A stretch of DNA of 64,000 nt from Halorubrum lipolyticum DSM 21995. Lineage in GTDB: Archaea; Halobacteriota; Halobacteria; Halobacteriales; Haloferacaceae. Shown here piece by piece: positions 27,528 to 30,603 of this stretch. The notes beneath the pieces were generated by a model. It saw nothing but the letters and a program-made list of their open reading frames with translations. It searched no databases and was not told the origin of the DNA. Each line of letters begins with the position of its first letter. Position 1 is the first letter of the stretch. The translations under genes and the position numbers were made by a program. The stretch is taken from positions 1 through 64,000 of the forward strand of contig NZ_AOJG01000034.1 of assembly GCF_000337375.1 (NCBI RefSeq), in the 5' to 3' direction.

Positions 27528-29255
27528 TCAGTGGCTCAGCGCCCACGGGTAGCCGCCGTCGCGGCCGCCGCCGCTTCCGCGCCCGTCGCCGTGGGCGTGA
27601 GCGTGACCGTCGCCGTGGCCGTGGCCGTCGCCGTGAGCGTGGCCGTGACCGTCGCCCCCGGAGTGACCGGTCCCGCGGTGACCGTCGCCGTCGGCGCCGG
27701 ATCCGTCGATCGGCTTCGCGTCCAGCGTCTCGTCGACGCGCAACACGAGCCCCGCGGTCCGGACCGCGGTCTCGAGACAGCGCGCGGGGACCGCGACCGG
27801 TTCGACGACGCCCGCGTCGAACATGTCGCGGACCGCGCCGGAGCGGGCGACGCCGGCCGCCGTCTCCCCGTCGTGGTGGCGGTTGCGGAGCGCGACCAGC
27901 GCGTCGATCGGGTCCGCGCCGGCGTTCCTCGCGAGGGCCCGCGGGATCACCGTCACCGCCTCCGCGAACGCGTCGAGCGCGAGCGCCGAGCGGTCGTCGA
28001 CGCTCGACGCGCGGTCGGCCACGGCGCGGAAGACGGCCGTCATGCCGGCGCCGCCGCCCGGAACGACGCCGCCCCCGCTGGCGGCGTGGCGCGCGACCGC
28101 GAGGCAGTCCTCGACGATCCGTTTGGTCTCCTCGGCGACGTGCGGCGTTCCGCCGCGCAGGAGCAGCGACTCGTGCGACTCGCCCGGGAGCCCCGAGAGC
28201 TCGACCACGGTGCCGCCGCCGACCGATCGACGGCGAACCGATCCGGCCCTTCCGAGCTCGTCGCGCTCGAGGTCGGCGACCGCGGTCACCGGGGTCGCGT
28301 CCGCGGCGCGGGCGATCGCGTCGAACTCGTCGCGCCTCGTTCGCTCGACCGGGAGCACGCCGGCGCGCGCGAGCTCGGTCTTCGCCGCGTCGTTGATCGA
28401 CTTCTGACACACGAGCACGTCGACGTCGCGGTCCGCGATCGACCGGACCAGCTCGCTCTCGGCCGCCCGTTCGTGCTCCCTGACGGCCGCGAGGTCGTCG
28501 GGACTCCGGACCGTCACGGTCCCCGACGCCTCGGCGGTGGGAGTCGTCACCTCGCCGTCGACGAGCGCGACGGTCGGGTCCGCGAGCGTTCGGCGGCCGT
28601 CGGTCCCGAACCCGTCGACCGTCGTCGACGACCCGTCGAGGTCGACGAGGATCCCGGTCACCCGCTCGGAGTCGGCCAGCTCGCCGCCGGGGTACGCGTG
28701 AAGCGTGAGCCGGGCGGCGTCGAAATCGACCGAGCGCAGCGCGTCGACGGTGATGTCGGCGAACCGCCGGGCCGACGCCGCGTCCCAGCGCCCGGTGACC
28801 GCCGTCGACGCGACCTCGCGGACCCGCTCGTCGCCCGGATCGACCGGCACGGTGAGTTCGTCGAGCGCGTCGCGGGCGTGCGACATCGCGCTGGCGTACC
28901 CGTCCACGACCGAGGTCGGGTGGAGCCCCCGCTCGACGAGCCCGTCGGCCGCGTCGAGGAGTTCGCCGACGAGCAGCGCCGTCGTGGTGGTCCCGTCGCC
29001 GACGTGCCGCGCGTGCGTCCGGATCGCGTCCCGGATCACGCGACCGATCGGAGCGTCGATCTCCAGTCCGTCGAGGACGGTCGCGCCGGTGTTCGTCACG
29101 ACGACGCTTCCGCTCCGGTCGATCACCATCTTGTCCAGCCCGTTGGGGCCGAGCGTGCCCCGGAGCGTCGCCGCGATCGCCCTCCCCGGTCCGAGAAGAT
29201 CGTCGGCTCCTCGTTCGGTACTCGATTCCTCGGTCGCTTCGGTCGTGAATGCCAT
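27528..29255 (-). CDS. Divergent group II chaperonin (thermosome-like) with His-rich tail
   Basis: The 575-residue protein has the full thermosome layout: equatorial start TLGPNGLDKMVIDRSG, ATP loop GDGTTTT with Asp87, apical VLVCQKSINDAAK, and return equatorial LLRGGTPHVAEETKRIVEDCLAVAR with the second catalytic-type Asp, then GGGVVPGGG. The usual TNDGAT motif reads TNTGAT, so Thr56 replaces the Asp equivalent to GroEL Asp52. The C-terminus (524-575) is a Gly/His/Asp repeat with about ten His instead of a GGM-like tail. It is probably an auxiliary chaperonin with altered ATP hydrolysis. Formamidase is 76 bases upstream on the same strand. Confidence 0.88.
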   Translation of the reverse strand: MAFTTEATEESSTERGADDLLGPGRAIAATLRGTLGPNGLDKMVIDRSGSVVVTNTGATVLDGLEIDAPIGRVIRDAIRTHARHVGDGTTTTALLVGELLDAADGLVERGLHPTSVVDGYASAMSHARDALDELTVPVDPGDERVREVASTAVTGRWDAASARRFADITVDALRSVDFDAARLTLHAYPGGELADSERVTGILVDLDGSSTTVDGFGTDGRRTLADPTVALVDGEVTTPTAEASGTVTVRSPDDLAAVREHERAAESELVRSIADRDVDVLVCQKSINDAAKTELARAGVLPVERTRRDEFDAIARAADATPVTAVADLERDELGRAGSVRRRSVGGGTVVELSGLPGESHESLLLRGGTPHVAEETKRIVEDCLAVARHAASGGGVVPGGGAGMTAVFRAVADRASSVDDRSALALDAFAEAVTVIPRALARNAGADPIDALVALRNRHHDGETAAGVARSGAVRDMFDAGVVEPVAVPARCLETAVRTAGLVLRVDETLDAKPIDGSGADGDGHRGTGHSGGDGHGHAHGDGHGHGDGHAHAHGDGRGSGGGRDGGYPWALSH

Positions 29256-29331: not shown

Positions 29332-30603
29332 TCACCCGAGCGGGTCGTCGGTGACGACGAGGTCGCCGCGGTCGGCCCGGTTGTCCAGGTTTCCGGGGGA
29401 GATGTCGAACTCGAAGACGCCCTTCGGGACCGCCAGCGTCGAGCACGCGTTCGGCACGTCGACGACGCCGCTCTGGCGCCCCTCCGCGGGGACGGTCCCG
29501 AGGATGTGAAGCGCCTGTTGGCCGGTGTAGCCGAACTTCTTGAGGTAGTCGATCGCCTGCAGACACGCCCGGCGGTAGGCGGTGTGCGAGTCGATGTAAC
29601 GCTGCTCGCCGTCCTCGGTCACGGAGTAGCCGCAGAACGTGATGTAGTCCTCGAAGTTGGGGCCGCGGTGTCCGGGCTCGAAGATCGGGTGGTCGACGCC
29701 GTGCTCCTCCATGCCGTTCTTGATCAGGTCGAACTCCACGTCCGCGTAGCCCGCCATCTCGATCGCGCCGCAGAAGGTGATCTCGCCGTCGCCCTGCGAG
29801 GCGTGGAAGTCGCCGAGCGCGAAGTTCGCCCCCTCGACGTAGACGGGGAAGTACACCGTCGAGCCGATGGAGAGGTCCTTGATGTCGTGGTTCCCGCCGT
29901 GCTCGCGCGGCGGGACGGTTCTGGCGGCCTCCTCGGCGGCCTCCTCCGCCTCGTCCGGATCCATCTCGCCCATCTGCGCGCCCTCCGTGGTCGGCGGGTT
30001 CGCGACGCCCGGCTCCGCCTCCCCGGTCGGGTGGTTCGGGATCGAGCTCGGGTCTTCCGCGTGTTTGTCGATCAGCTCCTGTTCCCGCTCGTTCCACTCC
30101 TCCAACAGCTCTTGGCTCGGCGCGCACCCCGCGAGCCCGGGGTGGATCTTCCCCTCGTACCGAACGTCGGGGACGTGCCGAGAGGAGACCGTGTACCCGT
30201 CGATCTCCCAGATCGACTTCGCGGCGTCGGGGAAGTGGTCGGTGAGGAACCCGCCCCCGTTCTGCTGGGAGAAGGTCCCGGTGAAGCCGAACTCGGACCG
30301 GTCGTTCAGCGGCCCCATGTCGTGGAACTCGACTTTCAACAGGTCGCCGGGCTCCGCTCCCTCGACGCGAACGGGACCGGCGAGGTAGTGGACCTGCGTG
30401 AGGTCCACGTCTCTGACCTCGTTCGGGTCGTCGTTGTCCGTGATCTGTCCGCCGGTCCAGTCCAACGCTTCGAGCCGGATCGTCTCGCCGGGCTCCGCCT
30501 CCACGACGGCCGGAATGTCCGGGTGCCACCGGTTGAACGGCTTGGCCGTCGGCTGCTCGTCCGGCGGACTGTCGACGTCGACCTCGAATTTCACTTCTGG
30601 CAT
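29332..30603 (-). CDS. fmdA: Formamidase/acetamidase (FmdA family)
   Basis: The 423-residue hydrolase releases ammonia and formate (or acetate) from short amides. The family pattern is clear: VHYLAGPVRVEGAEPGDLLKVEFHDM, EIDGYTVSSRHVPDVRYEGKIHPGLAGCAPS, LSIGSTVYFPVYVEGANFALGDFHASQGDGEI, and TFCGAIEMAGYADV. The start at MPEVKFEVDVDSPP is the family start. A Glu/Asp-rich insertion near residues 195-230 looks like a halophilic surface loop. It likely provides nitrogen from amides. It precedes the chaperonin gene on the same strand and the intergenic region upstream is AT-rich. Confidence 0.92.
   Translation of the reverse strand: MPEVKFEVDVDSPPDEQPTAKPFNRWHPDIPAVVEAEPGETIRLEALDWTGGQITDNDDPNEVRDVDLTQVHYLAGPVRVEGAEPGDLLKVEFHDMGPLNDRSEFGFTGTFSQQNGGGFLTDHFPDAAKSIWEIDGYTVSSRHVPDVRYEGKIHPGLAGCAPSQELLEEWNEREQELIDKHAEDPSSIPNHPTGEAEPGVANPPTTEGAQMGEMDPDEAEEAAEEAARTVPPREHGGNHDIKDLSIGSTVYFPVYVEGANFALGDFHASQGDGEITFCGAIEMAGYADVEFDLIKNGMEEHGVDHPIFEPGHRGPNFEDYITFCGYSVTEDGEQRYIDSHTAYRRACLQAIDYLKKFGYTGQQALHILGTVPAEGRQSGVVDVPNACSTLAVPKGVFEFDISPGNLDNRADRGDLVVTDDPLG

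Follow-up and report, generated by a model that had tools for sequence, protein, structure and literature searches.

Most prokaryotic chaperonins serve a broad range of clients; those strictly devoted to one client are uncommon, and most belong to eukaryotes. Plant Cpn60-beta4 (NdhH) and BBS6, BBS10 and BBS12 are divergent chaperonin subunits with an odd tail or a weakened ATPase, each tied to one client or complex. Mycobacterial GroEL1 is reportedly a dedicated chaperone, to go by the title of a 2005 study by Ojha (cited in PMC5904260), and we know of no formamidase link for it. GroEL1 is a chaperonin paralogue with a His/Asp-rich C-terminus, and peptide studies (PMC10170517) report that this tail binds Cu(II). 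In the literature on formamidase, chaperonins/thermosomes and haloarchaea, we found no paper connecting formamidase with a chaperonin. Here we describe a haloarchaeal clade, named CPN for the formamidase-linked chaperonins that make it up, whose members we consider, with a probability of about 0.74, to be dedicated ("private") chaperonins for a bacterial-type formamidase, FmdA. The CPN protein that served as our starting point resembles GroEL1 in being a paralogue with a His/Asp-rich tail; GroEL1, however, has a group I fold, belongs to another subfamily and lacks the GYPWAxxH end described below. In mode of work CPN may be likened to Cpn60-beta4 and the BBS proteins, although these are eukaryotic, have no operon link and carry unrelated tails, and Cpn60-beta4 belongs to another chaperonin group.

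The window analyzed here, 64,000 nucleotides of Halorubrum lipolyticum DSM 21995, contains the following features.

27528..29255, minus strand: group II-type chaperonin of the formamidase-linked CPN clade, 575 aa (ORF; PF00118; SH-aLRT 100)
29088..29090, minus strand: codon 56, Thr replacing the catalytic-site Asp (TNTGAT; alignments and tree set)
28995..28997, minus strand: codon 87, conserved Asp of GDGTTT (Asp in 75/75 rows)
28785..28787, minus strand: codon 157, Trp of TGRWD, CPN-specific (Gly in most thermosomes)
28326..28346, minus strand: codons 304-310, ERTRRDE, CPN-specific signature in the apical region (E304, T306 and D309 invariant in CPN, different in thermosomes)
28107..28109, minus strand: codon 383, second catalytic Asp, kept (lost in 22/73 family members)
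27555..27722, minus strand: His/Asp/Gly-rich tail linker, residues 512-567 (partly an 18-bp tandem repeat, 27584-27646)
27531..27554, minus strand: terminal motif GYPWALSH, residues 568-575 (G[YLH]PW[AST]xxH in 73/73 distinct sequences)
29332..30603, minus strand: formamidase FmdA1, 423 aa (PF03069, 547 bits; relative of 2wkn, 488 bits; 77-bp gap to the chaperonin gene)

The chaperonin gene opens with ATG, and its product matches PF00118 at 434 bits (cut-off 34.3) over profile positions 1-489 of 490, which identifies it as a Cpn60/TCP-1 chaperonin. It is closest to archaeal thermosomes, and in the PDB it matches group II chains best; five GroEL (group I) models give only 66-103 bits against cut-offs of 352-582, among them TIGR02348 with 76 bits against 582. 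Like the archaeal thermosome (PF00118; TIGR02339, NF041082), it shows full-length homology and has the GDGTT, GGGA and second-Asp motifs. Unlike the thermosome, it falls below the cut-offs of the NCBIfam models (NF041082, 378 against 450 bits; NF041083, 367 against 400; TIGR02339, 375 against 671), carries Thr56, lacks the Gly-Met-rich (GGM) C-terminal tail, in whose place stand a His linker and GYPWALSH, and belongs to a clade of its own beside fmdA. The same genome has two further chaperonin genes, both ordinary and with GGM tails. PF03069 and 2wkn describe the family of the neighboring enzyme, the partner and not the chaperonin itself.

The CPN set comprises 75 members from 75 loci, or 73 distinct sequences after removal of two duplicate copies. 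A profile (A1) built from 29 relatives of the window chaperonin gives CPN at least 607 bits, with two further members at 585-588, and the match runs to the profile end; ordinary thermosomes score at most 595 bits on it and their match stops near position 536. Genes were called with our own ORF procedure, the CPN of loci L080 and L097 being taken from the profile search; the search of the order's genomes scored the three best candidates of each. A quick tree that includes 26 thermosomes groups the 73 CPN in a single clade (SH-aLRT 100), and residues W157, S209, E304, T306 and D309 are invariant in CPN and specific to it relative to thermosomes. The window gene belongs to this clade, has the terminal motif and lies 77 bp from FmdA; four additional distinct CPN found later also agree with the terminal motif. 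CPN is present in 55 of 392 genomes of the window's order, with a patchy distribution over seven families and 26 genera. Beyond the order, 124 genomes of the same phylum yielded no CPN, their best match (570 bits) ending at position 533, and a scan of viral contigs with the A1 profile found no CPN relative. The CPN of Haloarcula marismortui pNG700, Natronomonas pharaonis PL131 and Natribaculum luteum are annotated merely as chaperonin or thermosome. A plasmid "thsA" of Halorussus vallis was considered for membership and ruled out as another paralogue without the tail motif. This divergent thermosome paralogue (L194:6914-8533) has ABC-transporter genes around it and an alpha-glucuronidase gene nearby, and is possibly a second client-linked chaperonin.

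The initial annotation had placed a formamidase gene just upstream of the chaperonin gene, and FmdA does lie there, 77 bp away on the same strand. We collected 69 neighborhoods (the window and 68 others) by CPN alone, and a full-length FmdA gene (PF03069; for instance 547 bits in the window and 555 bits in L080) is found in all 69. The gap to the nearest FmdA is at most 300 bp in 56 of the 69 loci (median 96 bp), and its orientation varies: same strand upstream in 26, convergent in 23, same strand downstream in 12 and divergent in eight. Such close spacing in four orientations indicates that the adjacency has survived rearrangement. Two FmdA types, 58% identical, occur as FmdA1 only (37 loci), FmdA2 only (ten) or both (22), so CPN goes with either type. 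Across loci, CPN identity correlates with that of FmdA1 (r = 0.41) and FmdA2 (r = 0.89), with none of 2,000 permutations as high.

The same association holds at the level of genomes. PF03069 scores in the 392 genomes are bimodal, strong FmdA scoring at least 541 bits and all others at most 152. Strong FmdA occurs in 57 genomes, and the 55 with CPN all lie inside those 57; no genome of the 392 has CPN without FmdA. These 55 comprise 52 identified by profile search, G129 and G154 (585-587 bits, tail confirmed), and G235, in which a C-terminal piece of CPN lies at a contig end beside FmdA. The other two genomes with strong FmdA count against a dedicated role but are incomplete: CPN was not found in G191 (71% complete; FmdA on a 5.9-kb contig), nor within the 19 kb examined in G225 (79% complete). 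The Fisher p-value for co-occurrence over the 392 genomes is 2.5e-65; since these genomes are related, the contrast within the window's genus is a fairer guide, and there four of 32 genomes have both genes and 28 have neither. In the window's family (170 genomes), 36 have FmdA1-like DNA and 34 of those an intact CPN. The other two, both incomplete genomes (G569 and G583; L223 and L222), carry a broken CPN beside an intact fmdA, in two pieces in different frames in G569 and as an N-terminal remnant alone in G583; they offer natural tests of FmdA function without CPN. Two apparent counter-examples were rejected. No CPN lies within 7 kb of the FmdA on a plasmid of Natronococcus occultus, but this FmdA is identical (421/421) to one on contig C3 of G292, which has CPN on C1; likewise the Halobaculum salinum plasmid FmdA is 100% identical to one on C2 of G058, whose CPN is on C1. 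In G101, CPN is at one end of a 305-kb contig and FmdA at the other; FmdA sequence is present at both ends, probably one gene split by a contig break.

One might instead suppose that fmdA and the chaperonin gene are functionally unconnected passengers of one mobile nitrogen-use island, as many loci are on megaplasmids (H. marismortui pNG700, N. pharaonis PL131, Natribaculum) and the spread over families and genera is patchy. Against this, other island genes vary (AmiS in 36 of 69 loci, CrcB in 25), whereas the CPN-FmdA pair is universal and stays close in four orientations, and the non-adjacent cases in N. occultus and H. salinum still have both genes in the genome; we therefore regard simple hitchhiking as very improbable. 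The specialized-client role proposed in the initial annotation is, by contrast, strongly supported by gene content, with FmdA the likely client (69/69 neighborhoods, 55/57 genomes). Co-transfer of a linked pair could nevertheless lie partly behind the co-occurrence. Strong FmdA is absent from the 124 phylum genomes outside the order, and a proteobacterial plasmid FmdA is ~57% identical to that of the window, which together suggest that haloarchaeal FmdA may have been acquired from bacteria.

The window protein reads TNTGAT at the TND site, as first noted, and Thr56 aligns in an ungapped stretch with the Asp at residue 64 of 1q3r; D87 of GDG and the later D383 (residue 393 of 1q3r, Mm-cpn D386) are present, also in agreement with that annotation. 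Among the 73 CPN, site 1 is Asp in 59, Thr in 11, Asn in two and Lys in one (at least four changes on the tree), and site 2 is Asp in 51, Thr in 11, Asn in seven, Gly in three and Ser in one (at least eight changes). The Asp is thus lost in 14 and 22 sequences, respectively; 35 of 73 miss at least one, and one (L086) misses both, whereas all 26 thermosomes sampled have Asp at both sites. Thr56 is common to all eight Halorubrum sequences of the 73 and recurs in other genera (L125, L141 and L145), and is therefore not due to chance; two more Halorubrum sequences beyond the 73-row set (L211 and L213) have it too. The expectation that orthologues would share both Thr and tail thus holds within Halorubrum, but not among more distant members, which combine the tail with Asp (59 of 73).

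From GroEL D52, a change of the site-1 Asp is known to weaken hydrolysis. The GDG Asp is kept in all 75 CPN rows, which indicates that ATP binding is probably retained; slowed hydrolysis, predicted in the initial annotation from Thr56, is plausible and fits the recurrent loss of either catalytic Asp. Passages of two papers describe comparable changes in other group members, Mm-cpn D386A binding ATP with hydrolysis impossible (PMC5019054) and ATPase-deficient CCT mutants having the conserved catalytic Asp altered (PMC5413064). The Asp losses, together with fast evolution (mean identity across loci is 45% for CPN and 81% for FmdA), might also be read as signs that a thermosome paralogue of the ordinary kind, with general clients, is decaying. 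However, neither the GDG Asp nor the end motif varies, the frames are open, FmdA co-occurs, and Thr56 is fixed in an 11-member clade spanning several genera, so that of all the alternatives we give decay the least credence. The faster evolution of CPN could also mean weak constraint, which would count against a dedicated role.

About ten His had been described in the last 52 residues of the window protein, and we count 11. CPN linkers are 16.5% His, 14.8% Asp and 20.2% Gly, with 2% His in the body of the protein, and HxH occurs in 64 of the 73. The number of His ranges from 0 to 11; among close relatives alone, tails of 36 to 68 aa hold 4 to 11, and L080 and L081, both with FmdA neighbors, have none in the linker. 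Some of the window's His repeat (27584-27646) is made up of 3.5 tandem copies of an 18-bp unit. It follows from the variation in length and content and from this array that the His count itself is not conserved. The protein ends in GGYPWALSH, and an end of the form G[YLH]PW[AST]xxH is found in all 73 distinct CPN, 18 of which carry two to nine extra residues after it. Ordinary thermosomes lack this motif, the seven haloarchaeal ones in our comparison having GGM tails; a search for the end motif as DNA in 23 genomes found one copy per CPN gene and one unrelated match. Of the tail that the initial annotation asked about in orthologues, then, the end motif never changes, and the His repeats, though widespread, differ between members. 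Given this contrast, the best reading is that the end peptide, and not the histidines, is the part under selection. AmiS/UreI proteins of CPN loci (e.g., L121:8352-8876) end in WPW or WPWA, a superficial likeness to GYPWA that is probably a coincidence.

These tail data bear on a further explanation, in which CPN is a metal-loading or buffering chaperonin whose His tails hold Zn, Ni or Cu within the ring for FmdA or for the cell, folding being secondary. FmdA relatives are metal proteins, the linker is far richer in His than the body, HxH is frequent, and the Cu(II)-binding GroEL1 tail offers a parallel. But some linkers lack His altogether beside FmdA, the window repeat is partly a DNA expansion, and the conserved part of the tail is GYPWAxxH. 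We consider this explanation unlikely, although less so than hitchhiking or decay. The metal-buffering idea of the initial annotation is weakened by the variable His number, by L080 and L081 and by an invariant end that is not His-rich; a role of the tail in metal loading is no more than a possibility.

The invariant GDG Asp, the recurrent loss of catalytic Asp, the CPN-specific invariants, the end peptide and the universal partner together fit a single-client chaperonin. Under this preferred reading, a single duplication and specialization of a thermosome-type subunit in haloarchaea would have yielded a chaperonin for the folding or assembly of bacterial-type FmdA, which would have traveled since with one or more fmdA genes, often with an AmiS/UreI amide channel. 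FmdA may be held in the CPN cavity; group II chaperonin C-termini lie at the cavity floor, and the tail could there present GYPWAxxH as a client-specific contact. ATP would be bound and slowly hydrolyzed, either in a homo-ring acting as a slow timer or by a specificity subunit within ordinary thermosome rings. We slightly prefer the mixed ring, in which other subunits hydrolyze ATP, because the repeated disappearance of hydrolysis residues is less surprising there. Single-chain AlphaFold2 modeling of seven sequences (the window and L034-L039) gave a mean pLDDT of only 42.7, and so lends no support to ring formation by CPN. A more elaborate scheme, in which a formamidase from bacteria entered haloarchaea and is tethered at the cavity floor by the GYPWAxxH of a hydrolysis-weakened specificity subunit in ordinary thermosome rings, as the subunit's His linker hands over the metal in the course of folding, is doubtful as a whole, if somewhat less so than metal loading as the principal role. 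Bacteria presumably fold FmdA without CPN, a point against a dedicated chaperonin; the pair may reveal what it takes for a transferred bacterial enzyme to work in a salt-in cytoplasm.

The genome evidence pairs a single chaperonin clade with a single enzyme that is conserved and simple to assay, and the clade includes natural variants that lack one or the other catalytic Asp or the His repeats. Recognition of a single client, the role of the tail and the need for ATP hydrolysis in folding are thus testable in tractable haloarchaea.

Several other genes recur in the 69 neighborhoods. Besides AmiS/UreI (36 loci), pairs of CrcB fluoride-channel genes are repeatedly found near formamidase, AmiS and chaperonin genes (25 loci; L079-L146 neighborhoods, e.g., L170:12976-13712), and a link to amide use through fluoroacetamide or similar amides is a guess. 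Family c55 (~200-244 aa, no Pfam match) occurs in 30 loci (e.g., L122:10752-11483), and c59 (~190 aa), assigned by NCBI annotation to the carboxymuconolactone decarboxylase family, in 22 (e.g., L089:6113-6685). Two families of smaller proteins, c56 (~87 aa; e.g., L131:11271-11534) and c57 (~113 aa; e.g., L100:10923-11264), are found in 18 and 15 loci, respectively.
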